Shown piece by piece: positions 13,275-39,974 of a stretch of DNA of 64,000 nt. The DNA is from Corynespora cassiicola (taxonomy: Eukaryota > Ascomycota > Dothideomycetes > Pleosporales > Corynesporascaceae): assembly GCA_022059125.1 (NCBI GenBank), contig JAEUWY010000020.1:2170001-2234000 (forward strand), written 5' to 3'. Under the pieces are notes generated by a model. It was not told where the DNA came from and searched no databases. It saw nothing but the letters and a program-made list of their open reading frames with translations. The translations under genes and the position numbers were made by a program. The stretch's first letter is position 1. Each line of letters begins with the position of its first letter.

Positions 13275-14517
13275 ATGCATCTCTCTCACTCCCTTCTTCT
13301 TTCCTTGATCGCCTCCACCGCAGCGGCGGCGGGTGTCACTGGTGAGGCTTTTGGCTTCGCTGCGGGCACCACTGGTGGAGGCAACGCATCTCCCGTTACT
13401 CCCAAGGACATTGAGGAGCTCACGACCTACCTGACCGACGACGAGGCCCGCGTCATTATTCTTGACAAGGAATACAACTTCCTCGGCAGCGAGGGAGAAA
13501 CCACCGAGGACGGCTGCAGGCCAGACTCCAACACTTGCCCAGAAAATGGTGGCCAGGACGCCATCAACGGTGCTGACTGGTAGGATGAATGATGTTTCCA
13601 TATTTTTGCTCTTCCTAACTTGTTTCCAGGTGCGGCTCCCAGCCCAAGGTCAGCGTCACCTATGACAAGGCTGCCATCACTCCCATCCAAGTCGGCTCCA
13701 ACAAGTCGATTGTCGGTTCTGGCGACAAGGGTGTGATCCGTGGAAAGGGTCTTCGCATCGCCAACGGCGCTAAGAACGGTATGTATTCCTCTATGAAGTT
13801 CGGTTGTATGCAAGCGCTGACGGGATACATCTAGTCATCATCCAGAACATCCACATCACCGAGCTCAACCCTCAGTACATCTGGGGTGGTGATGCCATCA
13901 CTCTCGTCGGCTCTGACCAGATCTGGATTGATCATGTGAAGACCTCTCTCATTGGCCGCCAGCACATTGTCACTGGCTACGAGCCCGCCGGCAGCGTAAC
14001 CATCTCCAACGTTGAGATTGACGGAAACACGTCGTGGTCTGCCTCCTGCGACAACCACCACTACTGGGCGCTCCTCTTCCTCGGCACCAACGACAAGGTC
14101 ACCTTCCAGTACAACTACATCCACCACACCTCCGGCCGCTCGCCCAAGATCGGTGGCACCGACTCCGGCACCCTCTTCCACGCCGTCAACAACTACTGGT
14201 ACGACAACACCGGCCACGCCTTCGACATCTCCGAGAACGCCCGCGTCCTCGCCGAGGGCAACGTCTTCGAGAGTGTCAAGAACCCCATCAACGAGGGCGT
14301 CGAGCTCCTCTTCTCCGCCCCCGATGCCAGCTCCAACGCTCAGTGCGAGAGCGGCCTCGGATACACCTGCGAGGTCAACCAGCTCACCGACTCTGGCAGC
14401 TTCGCCGGCTCGTCTACCTCGTTCCTCGGCGAGTTCAAGGGCGAGGCCGTCAAGGCGATTGCTGCCACCGAGGTGGCTGCCTACGTTAAGTCGAACGCTG
14501 GTGTCGGCAAGTTGTAA
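13275..14517 (+). CDS. Secreted pectin lyase (polysaccharide lyase family 1)
   Basis: Exons 13275-13579, 13630-13778 and 13835-14517 (introns GTAGGA...TCCAG and GTATGT...TCTAG) give 378 residues. A signal peptide is visible ([19 protein letters not shown]). The PL1 parallel beta-helix is recognisable by [36 protein letters not shown] and [10 protein letters not shown]. The substrate-binding/catalytic basic residue region is [10 protein letters not shown]. Pairing of WGGDAIT with GRQHIV and HHYW fits pectin lyases (EC 4.2.2.10), which cleave methyl-esterified homogalacturonan by beta-elimination without calcium, rather than pectate lyases. It should act outside the cell in plant cell-wall degradation. 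Codon use is strongly C-ending, as in highly expressed genes. Confidence 0.95.
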
Positions 14518-34887: not shown

Positions 34888-35682
34888 TCAAAGGACGTTT
34901 GTAACGTCGATCTCTTGATGGTACAATTCTCGAAATTGACACATGGTCTCCCATCGTTGAACAGCCATGTCTCTTGCAGCCTGTGTCTTCACCAAAGGAA
35001 GGTATTTAATAAACCTTGTGTGATGAAGCCGGATGCCCTCGTGGATCGACTGTACCTTTCGCTCTTCATGAATCCCACCATACACAAAACAGCGGGCAAT
35101 TCCAATGGCTCCAATGGCGTCCAGCTTATCAGAGTCTTGAACAAAAGCTAGTTCTGGGCATCTTTGAACAGCCTTGAGGTTTTCTTCCTCGTTGTTTTTC
35201 TCCCTAGAGAAGGAAACATTTGTCGCAATGAAAGTCACTTTGTCAGTGATATCACATGAAGCTCCGCAACTGAGCATCATATCGCAAACAATTTCTTTCT
35301 GAGACCTGTCCTTCTGGAAATACTTCCTCTCCCCTACGTCGTGCATCATACAGCCCAGATACACGATGAGAAGATCGATTTGGCTGCCCCATTTAGGGTT
35401 CAGCTTGAATTCCTCCGCCATGATTCGGTGGGCCAGGGCGACTACTCGCTGAACGTGTTCGTAGTCATGTGAGGGGCCATAATCTTTGCCGTACATGTAT
35501 TCACGGACTTTGATATTGGCTTCGGTGAACATCTCGCGATGCTCCTCAGGAATGCCTAACTTTTCCATGTCTAACAGGAGCTGATTTCTTTCGGCACTGC
35601 AGTCTAAGTATCCACCCGGGAGGTGGGGATTGGGAGCCAGATGGTCGAAAGCGGGCTTGGGTAAGTTGGAAAGGCCAGTCAT
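34888..35682 (-). CDS. HD-domain phosphohydrolase-like protein (paralogue A)
   Basis: Intronless, 264 residues, ATG at 35682. HD superfamily metal site: SHDYEHVQRV (His72), then CMMHDVGERKYF with the His-Asp pair (114-115), and the later Asp in VQDSDKLDAIGAIGIARCF. The C-terminal stretch SIHEGIRLHHTRFIKYLPLVKTQAAR matches the family core too. Proteins of this type (bacterial YedJ-like and fungal homologues) are predicted metal-dependent phosphohydrolases without an established substrate. It lies about 1 kb from paralogue B on the same strand, within AT-rich flanks. Confidence 0.88.
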   Translation of the reverse strand: MTGLSNLPKPAFDHLAPNPHLPGGYLDCSAERNQLLLDMEKLGIPEEHREMFTEANIKVREYMYGKDYGPSHDYEHVQRVVALAHRIMAEEFKLNPKWGSQIDLLIVYLGCMMHDVGERKYFQKDRSQKEIVCDMMLSCGASCDITDKVTFIATNVSFSREKNNEEENLKAVQRCPELAFVQDSDKLDAIGAIGIARCFVYGGIHEERKVQSIHEGIRLHHTRFIKYLPLVKTQAARDMAVQRWETMCQFRELYHQEIDVTNVL

Positions 35683-36739
35683 TGTAGAATTTTCGTAATG
35701 TGCGAGATTGGCCTGTTAGTTCTTGGTTTTTATAGATACTTTTAGTTGTAGCAGTCGTAGTACTCTTGTAATGGGAAGAATTCATATAGGATAGGGGGCA
35801 CATTTTTATACATGAAAGTCAAGGAAGGTAATGGGAAAATTTGTTCGCCGTCTTTTCACAATGTTGTTCCTCAATTCCATGACAATTCCTTGTAAGTTGC
35901 GAATTGAAAAATACTTGAGCACGAAGTACCCGCATGTATGTTATCACGGGTGAATTCTTTGTGGCATTTGACCGAACGACCGTTCTTGCAATACAGAAGC
36001 TCTTTTTAACCGAAGCTTGGAAAAGAATGTTGAGTAATGGCTAGACTGTAGCAAGAAGGTGGCTTAAATTGGCCTTTGGGGGCTGATTGCTCGGTGTTGT
36101 TTCTTAAATCCCACGCAACCAGAAATATTGTCATGATGTGATGGCTCTAAGGAGAGTTGGTTTGACGGAGACTGTAACGACGGTGTAAACATTTTGTGGA
36201 GATCATACAGACGTAGTGAATAGAAAACATTAGATATGCGTCTGATCAGAGAGTGATCGTGCTTCTATAATTACGCCTCATCAAGCAAGCATAGTGACAC
36301 CGATTGCCTGACAAATGAACTCGTACGAAACACATATATGATTCGGAAAAAACAAAGGTGTTTGATTAGCTTAGGAAGAAACCGCCAAATAGCAGCTTTC
36401 CATAATGAATACTTGGTAACAAAGACAAAGTGATGTTTTCACAAACTATCCTTTGACTAACATTTTCACGAGACCCAGAGTTTTCTGGGTTCTTGAAAGA
36501 CAGGGCGAAGCTCACCGCGAGCTTGGACTTGTATGAGAATAGAGTACAGAGTCTGATGGCAAGGTCAGCTTGGGTTCTTTTAGTATAAATCGCATGTTTG
36601 AGCCTAGCTGAAAAGGCAAAATTCGTCGTGAGCGATGCGTGCATACACACATTCAAAGCGTTGCCCCAGCAGTAAGAGAAGGCGAATTGATAATTCTTCA
36701 AAACTGATCACTCTGCATATTATATTACGGCTCGCAATC
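35683..36739. other. AT-rich spacer between two HD-domain genes
   Basis: About 1.06 kb, AT-rich, no supportable gene; a 111-codon minus-strand open frame (36366-36701) has no recognisable features. Confidence 0.5.
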
Positions 36740-37429
36740 TTAATTGTATCCAAATGAAAGCCTGGACTCTTCCTCAAATTGACGCCGAAAGGTCTCCAAA
36801 GTATTCTTTCTTGATATGGCGACCTCCCTTCCTGTCCTCGTCTTCATTGTCCCAGGCAGTTTGTATAGCTTCGCATCGTAGATGTCGAAACATGCGCTCA
36901 TTGGAAGATCCATCCTTCGGGCACCCCCATAAGCGAAGCATCGTGCTATACCCACTGCCCCGATGGCATCTAATCGATCTGCGTCTTGCACAATGGCAAG
37001 CTCAGGGAACTCGGCGAGGGTGTCTGCGACCGATTGCGGATCTCTCATCTCATTTGTCCAACTAACATGTTTGGCGATAGCCTGTACTTTGAAAGCCATG
37101 AGGTCATGTGCACCATGTTCGCGCATAATGCGATATATTTGATTCTCTGCATCCTCGCCTGGTTTGGCGTATTTGTGGTCGCCAACATCGTGGAGGAGTG
37201 CGGCCAAGAACAGAGCAGAAGTATCATACTTCTGGTCTGGATTTTCCTTCATCTCTTCCCCCAGCAGTGTTTTGGCATTGGATACGACCCGCAGGATATG
37301 AAAGTAATCGTGGGAGTTGTCATGACCCGGTTGTGCCATGTAGGCATGAACGAAGGCATTGATTGATTTGATAAGCGCCTTGTCTTCGTCACGAACTGGC
37401 AAATTCGGGACTGGAATCTCAGTAGACAT
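36740..37429 (-). CDS. HD-domain phosphohydrolase-like protein (paralogue B)
   Basis: Intronless, 229 residues starting at ATG 37429 (MSTEIPVPNL); the open frame continues upstream without need. HD signature: NSHDYFHILRVV (His40), LAALLHDVGDHKYA (His80-Asp81), and VQDADRLDAIGAVGIARCFAYGG. The same motifs in the same order and spacing as its neighbour at 34888-35682 show they are paralogues; B is shorter at the N-terminus. Predicted metal-dependent phosphohydrolase of unknown substrate, probably cytosolic. Confidence 0.88.
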   Translation of the reverse strand: MSTEIPVPNLPVRDEDKALIKSINAFVHAYMAQPGHDNSHDYFHILRVVSNAKTLLGEEMKENPDQKYDTSALFLAALLHDVGDHKYAKPGEDAENQIYRIMREHGAHDLMAFKVQAIAKHVSWTNEMRDPQSVADTLAEFPELAIVQDADRLDAIGAVGIARCFAYGGARRMDLPMSACFDIYDAKLYKLPGTMKTRTGREVAISRKNTLETFRRQFEEESRLSFGYN

Positions 37430-38169
37430 TGTTCTTTGTTTTTTTTGGCAAGCCTTGTGGGCCAAATAGAAGAACACGATTATGCTGCGGGCACTTGAAG
37501 TGCAGGATTGATATAGTTATATAGCTGAGATATGTCGGCAAGATACACACCGCAAATCGGAAAATAAAAGACTGCTGCACTATGCATGATGAATGGGGCA
37601 GACCGAGAGAGGAGTCATAGCGAAAGGGCGCCTTCGTACATGATGTTGTATGCAAAAGGAAAAGCGCAGGAAGCCTAAAACGCGTAATCACATGTTCAAA
37701 GATACTTGACTGGACATCCCGAAGGTGGCGCACACGTTCCTTTTGCTGCTTGAACGGATGAGTGGCTCGGACAAGGCAGCTGTGACAAGACTATTGTACC
37801 ATCTCAAGTTGCGCCCTGTCAAGCGTGCTAAGGGCACGTTGATAGAAGGGCGCCATTAGCGTGTTTGTTTTCACCGGAAGGCGGAACAGGTGGTTATTGC
37901 TTCTTGTTGTGGGGAGGGGTTGCGCATGTACCTCACAAGATCTGCATGCAGCTGCAGGCAGAGAACGGTTCTGTTGAAAAGGGGTGGGTTTGGTACCTAG
38001 GTAATTTGTTATCCCTTTTGTCTTGGGATCTGGGGTCGGTAGCGCGGGACCTCGGCAGCCACGCGAGCATGAGATCACGCCCCTCGACGATTGCGACCTG
38101 CCTCCTCCACACCACCACGGCCTTCCGCGATAAGCCGAGATAGAGCCTCCAGCGAGGGGCGATATCAAA
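37430..38169. other. Divergent intergenic region (HD paralogue B / PEX16)
   Basis: 740 nt between divergent starts; no supportable gene. Should contain both promoters. Confidence 0.55.
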
Positions 38170-39465: not shown

Positions 39466-39790
39466 TCTTTTTCCCTTTGTCTGCTTCTATCGCTTGATAT
39501 CACGGACGGGACGGATGGTGTACGAATAATCATTGGATGTTGGATGACACGAAACTTCTGGCAACGGCTAGAAGTGAACAAACAAAGTGCCTACGTTACA
39601 CCAGGCTTCTGATACCACCTCTATTGCGCGGCTTCCTCTGCTTACCAAGTACCTATCTCCAAACAGCTGTTCCCTGTGATGGCGCCGCGCTTGGGCCGTG
39701 CGAATGATTTTCGACTAGTGGTGGATACCACAGGGCTCTGCCGACCCCGGAGCACCACCAAGGAGCAAAAAACTTTGCAAAAAAAGATGT
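39466..39790. other. Spacer between PEX16 and the tRNA gene
   Basis: 325 nt; 3' flank of PEX16 and the downstream flank of the minus-strand tRNA gene, including its T-run terminator. No other gene seen. Confidence 0.55.
39779..39785 (-). terminator. T7 Pol III terminator of tRNA-Leu
   Basis: Seven T on the minus strand begin 5 nt after the discriminator base of the tRNA. This is the standard RNA polymerase III stop signal and position. Confidence 0.8.
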
Positions 39791-39974
39791 TGATGAGGGT
39801 GGGACTCGAACCCACGCGGATTGCTCCACTAGTACCTGAAACTGTGGCAACTGTTAGAATCGTGCTTGATATGACTACGGTGGTGTTGACTTGCCTAGCG
39901 CCATAACTGTGAAATGTTAGAGGACGAATATTTGAGTTGGAAATGATTGCACATACCCACTCGGCCACCTCACC
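39791..39974 (-). tRNA. tRNA-Leu(CAG) interrupted by two spliceosomal-like introns
   Basis: Exons on the minus strand: 39974-39957 (18 nt), 39906-39895 (12 nt) and 39841-39791 (51 nt). Joined, they make an 81-nt tRNA. Acceptor stem GGTGAGG/CCTCATC (one G-T), D-arm GCC/GGC, anticodon stem CTAGT/ACTAG, loop TTCAGGT (anticodon CAG, T33 present), long variable arm GGA-GCAA-TCC, T-arm GTGGG-TTCGAGT-CCCAC, discriminator A73 as expected for Leu. Intron 1 (39956-39907, 50 nt, in the D-loop) runs GTATGT...CTCTAAC...CACAG. Intron 2 (39894-39842, 53 nt, between positions 30 and 31) runs GCAAGT...TTCTAAC...CACAG. Neither lies at the usual 37/38 site. Box A (TGGCCGAGTGG) ends exactly before intron 1, and box B (GGTTCGAGTCC) is intact. 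Reads CTG codons. Confidence 0.9.

Follow-up and report, generated by a model that had tools for sequence, protein, structure and literature searches.

In a 64,000-nucleotide (nt) stretch of the Corynespora cassiicola genome (assembly GCA_022059125.1, contig JAEUWY010000020.1, positions 2,170,001 to 2,234,000; here called the window), a transfer RNA (tRNA) gene for Leu(CAG) is split by two introns that look like the introns of messenger RNA (mRNA) (Table 1). Four more tRNA genes of the same genome carry ectopic GT-AG introns of 51 to 54 nt, that is, introns outside the position between nucleotides 37 and 38 (37/38), which brings the total to six ectopic introns in five genes. We conclude that the spliceosome very probably removes these introns. 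This reading of the sequence is supported by the anatomy of the introns, by their recurrence in five genes, and by conservation. For the use of the window copy itself our confidence is lower, given that an intact twin exists.

The window introns could be delimited by comparison with that twin. A search of the whole genome (44.35 megabases [Mb] in 23 contigs, with search sensitivity and assembly completeness limiting any statement of uniqueness) returned an uninterrupted Leu(CAG) gene at C23:1160561-1160641 that equals the joined exons of the window gene at 81 of 81 bases (E value of 2e-35). This identity confirms the boundaries without recourse to splice-site rules, leaving a slide of 1 nt for intron 1 and 2 nt for intron 2, and the boundaries proposed in an earlier interpretation made from the letters alone (the sequence-only reading) proved correct to the base. 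At exon 3, query bases 29 to 81 match the window locus at 100%, the first two of them following from the sliding ends. A covariance-model scan had been suggested as a check, and the intact copy, identical to the joined sequence, scores 57.5 bits against the Rfam tRNA model (cut-off of 29).

When both introns are cut out, ARAGORN (introns of up to 100 nt) draws a full cloverleaf tRNA-Leu(cag) of 81 bases, in line with the earlier description of an intact type II tRNA-Leu(CAG). At the same setting the unspliced gene gives no tRNA. With introns of up to 300 nt allowed, ARAGORN calls Trp(cca) at the unspliced locus, with an intron of 106 nt, a call that we rejected as a misreading. The features of a nuclear tRNA gene are present: cloverleaf, anticodon, U33, box B, and a terminator-like T-run. 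Exon 3 contributes the variable arm, the T-arm with box B, the 3' strand of the acceptor stem, and A73, and no T-run inside the gene is longer than three. Across the whole window, neither the ARAGORN tool nor Rfam at its cut-off reports a tRNA, so annotation may miss split tRNA genes. At a lax threshold, the full Rfam model aligns exactly to the 184 bases of the split gene with 27.2 bits.

The four further genes are Leu(TAA) (locus L110), Thr(TGT) (L202), and two genes for Ala(CGC) (L211 and L215). Both Ala(CGC) genes and Thr(TGT) have an intron at 37/38 besides the ectopic one. In a segment test, each stretch of 30 to 90 nt was removed irrespective of its ends, and a strict tRNA was required afterwards. 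The removals that restored such a tRNA numbered 8 in L202, 39 each in L211 and L215, and 5 in L110. In every gene exactly one of these solutions was GT-AG, yielding the anticodon given above; L211 had one extra GC-AG solution with a different anticodon. ARAGORN calls the joined sequences Leu(cag), Leu(taa), and, twice, Ala(cgc). Directly 3' of the split Ala(CGC) gene in L211 (C5:5965194-5965723), at about 472 to 501, lies a 3' fragment of an Ala-type tRNA with 30 bases identical to Ala(CGC); no 5' half was recognized within the stretch.

All six ectopic introns start with GT or GC, end with AG, measure 50 to 54 nt, and have a YTRAY motif 9 to 11 nt from the end. The 5' sites are GTATGT and GCAAGT in the window and GTATGT, GTAGGT, and the looser GTAAGG and GTCAGT in the other genes. 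In both window introns we again read the signals listed in the sequence-only reading, that is, the two 5' sites, the branch motifs CTCTAAC and TTCTAAC, and the terminal CACAG. The ectopic introns thus show the traits of U2-type introns: a 5' site, a branch motif with a YAG 3' site, an mRNA-like length, and an excision that restores the RNA. The likeness to surrounding mRNA introns that had been noted earlier extends to length and branch spacing, as seven introns located in three window genes by means of homologous proteins measure 47 to 56 nt with a YTRAY motif 8 to 13 nt from the end. For intron 1 of one of these genes, a pectin lyase gene, the GC-AG reading scored 170 and the GT-AG reading 169; the latter was used. 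A set of 35 mRNA introns called de novo by joining open reading frames (ORFs) was dropped as too noisy, since many had no branch motif.

In contrast, the canonical 37/38 introns of the genome (n = 74; median of 19 nt, range of 11 to 53 nt) include two that start with GT and seven that end with AG, but none with both, and 14 have a loose branch-like motif. Of 300,000 random 50- to 54-mers taken from 30 loci of this genome, 12 (4e-5) combined a 5' site with an AG end and a branch motif at the right distance, by criteria chosen after the introns had been seen. An introner-like element, with near-identical copies at many loci, was considered as a source and rejected: no second genomic copy was found of window intron 1, window intron 2, or the Leu(TAA) intron (the three introns, of the six, that were searched), which makes a recent introner family unlikely for those three.

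Conservation is seen in the Ala(CGC) pair. The two genes have identical exon bases (72/72) and share the position of the ectopic intron. The ectopic introns themselves are 55.9% identical (49.4 ± 3.6% when shuffled), near background, and the 37/38 introns are also unlike (16 and 13 nt). Identity is 54.2% over the upstream 100 nt (50.9 ± 2.2% shuffled) and 61.5% over the downstream 25 nt including the T-run (47.4 ± 5.4% shuffled). Identical exons next to diverged introns and upstream flanks suggest selection on the exons, the intron position, and the splice signals. The ectopic intron is probably older than the duplication of this gene.

Leu(TAA) provides evidence of another kind. By BLAST, the joined sequence matches only the split gene. 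A pattern combining the D-arm and anticodon has its sole exact match there, and the gene also appeared once among the 83 places of a box-A pattern, every one of which was scanned. With one mismatch allowed, the D-arm and anticodon pattern gave five places, of which the four that were read are three Leu(CAA) and one Leu(TAG); the fifth has GGAG for GGCG. By the rules of decoding, UUA is not known to be read by any nuclear tRNA other than Leu(UAA), and TTA accounts for 20/3326 codons in nine mechanically listed ORFs of the window. Because the gene was found only in split form and UUA needs it, the cell would have to splice the transcript of L110, unless an unseen gene exists. The codons of Ala(CGC) and Thr(TGT) might be covered by wobble; for these two, the search returned the split genes, a gene for Ala(AGC) that is intact and matches at 91%, and the Ala-type 3' fragment. 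All five split genes are followed by a T-run of 5 to 9 that starts 6 to 20 nt downstream, and none has an internal T-run longer than 4. A regular expression found TATA-like motifs upstream of four of the five, the gene without one being Leu(TAA).

We propose that several nuclear tRNA genes of this fungus host short U2-type (major-class) spliceosomal introns outside 37/38. RNA polymerase III (Pol III) would make the precursor, as box A and box B, the T-runs, and the TATA-like motifs suggest. The spliceosome would then excise the 50- to 54-nt introns by means of the 5' site, the branch site, and the 3' AG, to judge from their anatomy. The 37/38 introns of Ala(CGC) and Thr(TGT) would be removed by the tRNA endonuclease and ligase, so that genes carrying both kinds of intron would depend on two splicing systems. 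An exon of 12 nt separates the two introns of the window gene, which are therefore probably removed successively. Maturation by the spliceosome had been suggested in the sequence-only reading for the window gene, and the suggestion gains support from the mRNA-type signals in six of six ectopic introns, as opposed to GT-AG in none of the 74 canonical ones, and from a Leu(TAA) gene found only in split form. We consider it likely that this lineage uses the spliceosome regularly in tRNA maturation, that the sole tRNA-Leu(UAA), and with it the reading of UUA, depends on the spliceosome, and that Ala-CGC and Thr-UGU need both the spliceosome and the endonuclease. Reverse splicing, as thought for the U6 intron of fission yeast, is a possible route by which the introns arose.

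Table 1. Features of the split tRNA-Leu(CAG) gene in the window, numbered from the first base of the window, and the further tRNA genes with ectopic introns
Feature	Position	Strand	Details
tRNA-Leu(CAG) gene	39974..39791	minus	81 nt once joined; two introns
Exon 1	39974-39957	minus	18 nt; tRNA positions 1-19, acceptor 5' strand, box A; equals intact gene C23:1160561; cloverleaf when joined
Intron 1	39956-39907	minus	50 nt; GT-AG; GTATGT...CTCTAAC...CACAG; D-loop, between positions 19/20
Branch-site motif of intron 1	39916..39922	minus	CTCTAAC, 9 nt from 3' end
Exon 2	39906-39895	minus	12 nt; 3' part of D-loop, D-stem 3' strand, anticodon stem 27-30
Intron 2	39894-39842	minus	53 nt; GC-AG; GCAAGT...TTCTAAC...CACAG; anticodon stem, between positions 30/31
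Branch-site motif of intron 2	39853..39859	minus	TTCTAAC, 11 nt from 3' end
Exon 3	39841-39791	minus	51 nt; tRNA positions 31-73, anticodon CAG; match to intact gene
TATAAA	39991..39996	minus	22 nt 5' of the Leu(CAG) gene; motif only
Run of 7 T	39779..39785	minus	presumed Pol III terminator; motif only
Leu(TAA), L110	C23:1276919		51-nt intron in T-loop, 58/59
Ala(CGC), two genes, L211 and L215	C5 and C8		ectopic introns of 53 and 54 nt, both at 25/26
Thr(TGT), L202	C4		52-nt ectopic intron at 24/25; weaker case

Several observations weigh against removal of these introns by the spliceosome, in the window gene or in general. The intact, identical Leu(CAG) gene means that the window copy may be dispensable, or even silent. 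The sequence-only reading had raised the possibility that the window holds the only CAG-anticodon gene, which is not the case, and it had named an uninterrupted Leu(CAG) gene elsewhere, together with a lack of spliced reads from this locus, as the mark of a pseudogene; the first half of that pair is now in hand. The window gene might accordingly be a disused copy, the introns having entered one of two Leu(CAG) genes while the intact gene serves the cell. Over 60 nt of downstream flank, the two genes resemble each other more than shuffled sequence does (64.7% identity, compared with 46.0 ± 4.0%), so their duplication may be fairly recent and the identity of the exons correspondingly less telling. 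Short D- and T-arm insertions in eukaryotic tRNA genes, moreover, are described in PMC4090602 as lying mostly in one of many synonymous genes that are supposed pseudogenes. However, all 81 exon bases are intact despite near-background identity over the 100 nt upstream (55.2% compared with 50.0 ± 2.8% shuffled), both insertions keep full splice signals, and Leu(TAA), Thr(TGT), and Ala(CGC) were found only in split form, apart from the one Ala-type 3' fragment. We regard a disused window copy as unlikely. For the two Leu(CAG) genes, gain of the introns in one copy and loss from the other are indistinguishable.

Other such observations concern the further genes. Thr(TGT) is a weaker case, with the 5' site GTCAGT and a C13-A22 mismatch, and ARAGORN, which puts the 37/38 intron elsewhere, calls its joined sequence SeC(tca). 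For the Ala(CGC) genes in unspliced form, ARAGORN gives the alternatives Asn(att) and Glu(ttc), in which the anticodon stem is imperfect. Claims that a gene exists only as a split copy are bounded by the sensitivity of the searches and the completeness of the 23-contig assembly. Finally, two loci (L199 and L235) carry GC-rich insertions before the anticodon loop that have no GT-AG solution, and they were not counted as extra cases. When the stem requirement is relaxed, a single short GC-AG solution appears in each, giving a different anticodon.

The remaining adverse points bear on the idea that the tRNA splicing endonuclease removes the ectopic introns and that their mRNA-like ends are incidental. 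Ectopic tRNA introns in Cyanidioschyzon merolae, nucleomorphs, and archaea, at positions partly shared with those seen here, are mostly tied to a bulge-helix-bulge structure and the tRNA endonuclease in the accounts of PMC9602550, PMC3978253, and PMC4090602, and two of our five ectopic sites (25/26 and 30/31) are among the archaeal endonuclease-cut sites given in PMC4090602. Window intron 2 has four central bulge-helix-bulge pairs in one of its three registers, and all six ectopic introns reach three or four when either end is allowed to shift by 3 nt. In the given registers the other five have one to three of the four pairs. Only 17 of 78 canonical introns reach four, so this test has low power and decides little (the set comprised 78 introns here and 74 in the signal count, duplicates having been removed by a different key). 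An exon-intron pair occurs in 62 of the 78, but it is tied to position 32 and does not apply to ectopic sites. The case against the endonuclease thus comes from the splice signals, not from junction structure: all six ectopic introns combine spliceosomal ends with a branch motif spaced as in mRNA introns, while the canonical introns lack the GT-AG pair altogether. The window introns, at 19/20 and 30/31, are also away from the 37/38 position usual for eukaryotic endonuclease introns. Removal by the endonuclease is, in our view, very unlikely. Least probable is a variant of spliceosomal removal in which the introns are spliced from an RNA polymerase II read-through transcript and the tRNA is then trimmed out, against which stand the T-runs behind all five genes with none longer than 4 inside, the TATA-like motifs at four of five, and the spliceosomal introns known in transcripts of Pol III and RNA polymerase I (Pol I) (U6, PMC10484740; ribosomal RNA [rRNA], PMC8527467).

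By the prevailing view, the introns of nuclear tRNAs are a realm apart from those of mRNAs, and each kind has its own enzymes. Among the papers listed in literature searches on introns, noncoding RNA, and this organism, in a collection with few subscription journals, none was seen to describe a tRNA gene with a spliceosomal intron. An intron in the U6 small nuclear RNA gene of fission yeast was reportedly described by Tani and Ohshima in 1989 and 1991. This mRNA-type intron is thought to stem from reverse splicing (PMC10484740). Like the introns proposed here, it is a spliceosomal intron in a short noncoding Pol III RNA of a fungus; U6, however, belongs to the spliceosome, whereas the hosts in C. 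cassiicola are tRNAs for three amino acids, with two introns in single genes. U6 itself gave nine matches above the Rfam cut-off in this genome, each over the whole model and uninterrupted (48 of 2690 candidates scored). Nine copies are more than expected for a fungus.

Among ascomycetes, and above all in lichens, rRNA genes with spliceosomal introns have also been described (Bhattacharya et al. 2000, cited in PMC8527467), and yeast could also remove such introns from Pol I transcripts (PMC8527467). In these filamentous ascomycetes, too, genes for noncoding RNA host spliceosomal introns at ectopic sites, but the introns lie in multicopy ribosomal DNA transcribed by Pol I, whereas the genes studied here are Pol III-type tRNA genes in one or few copies. 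The sequence-only reading mentioned the U6 introns and omitted those of rRNA that PMC8527467 treats. The ectopic introns of C. merolae, nucleomorphs, and archaea likewise occur in the D-arm, anticodon stem, and T-arm, sometimes several per gene, whereas those of C. cassiicola are 50 to 54 nt long, are bounded by GT-AG or GC-AG, and contain a branch motif. Guillardia theta is reported to have many ectopic tRNA introns without a defined motif, whose removal is given as unexplained (PMC9602550; PMC3978253; PMC4090602). The split genes for Ala(CGC) and Thr(TGT) also contain canonical eukaryotic 37/38 introns, and the ectopic ones differ from them in position, in length, and in the GT-AG pair of ends.

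According to the tRNAscan-SE 2.0 paper (PMC8450103), a eukaryotic tRNA gene has no more than one intron. If the interpretation offered here is true, single tRNA genes can carry two introns, and some use both splicing machines. The action of the spliceosome on a folded Pol III precursor and on a 12-nt internal exon then becomes testable, as do the way in which introns come to enter genes for noncoding RNA and the number of tRNA genes that annotation overlooks.

The survey behind these counts combined several patterns. A box-B pattern gave 78 places (91 in the backwards control), 26 of which belonged to tRNAs found before, and each of the remaining 52 was read. Two further box-B patterns gave 76 and 79 places (controls of 160 and 69), and 63 of these 155 places were examined, in 60 stretches. 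A strict structure parser applied to 241 loci read 91 tRNAs, of which 74 had a 37/38 intron, 15 were intronless, and 2 had an ectopic insertion, the last being the Ala(CGC) genes L211 and L215. Thr(TGT) and Leu(TAA) were detected through arms that were present in a tRNA unreadable as a whole. Among shorter loci there were 76 box-B sites with a five-pair T-stem; L202, L211, and L215 had no direct reading there but did have a GT/GC-AG solution, and 13 had no solution, four of which ARAGORN names as tRNAs (L118, L177, L199, and L232).

A query of six approximate fungal tRNAs (Phe, Tyr, His, Ser(GCT), Ile(TAT), and Pro(AGG)) gave nine matches, all to its Pro part, and these are Ala and Pro genes. 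The genes for Phe, Tyr, His, Ser(GCT), and Ile(TAT) were not located with the approximate queries or the box patterns. With five isoacceptors missing, the tRNA list is incomplete, and further split tRNA genes may exist in this genome. For comparison, PMC8235470 gives five C. cassiicola assemblies of 41.4 to 47.1 Mb and two strains annotated with 192 and 214 tRNAs.

Some loci outside the five genes are also worth recording. L199 (C2:2968499-2968779) is tRNA-like at about 109 to 252, is named Thr(ggt) by ARAGORN, and has six of seven pairs in the acceptor stem. L235 (C12:452113-452393) resembles Ser(TGA) at about 119 to 252, with a GC-rich 52-nt insertion near position 32; its segment solutions under the strict stem are only of kinds other than GT/GC-AG, and an intact Ser(TGA) gene exists besides it (L020 and L164). 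ARAGORN also reports tandem tRNA pairs 9 to 33 nt apart in L120, L125, L194, and L200, which it names Gly-Gly, Glu(ctc)/Gln(ttg), Arg-Arg, and Ala-Ala.

Elsewhere in the window, the pectin lyase gene (13275-14514, plus strand) has its best match, among the matches listed, in Dothidotthia symphoricarpi (79%), and the match listed for C. cassiicola Philippines is 55% identical. The gene may be absent from C. cassiicola Philippines, or it may have been gained. An aquaporin encoded in the window, in contrast, is 99% identical (95% query coverage) to an aquaporin of C. cassiicola Philippines, as fits C. cassiicola or a near relative; for single exons tblastn gives 97% and 100% identity, and it gives 81% for an alignment that crosses an intron. 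Two adjoining ORFs on the minus strand (34888-35715 and 36740-37516), which look like HD-type hydrolases, have similar motifs and are perhaps a tandem duplicate.
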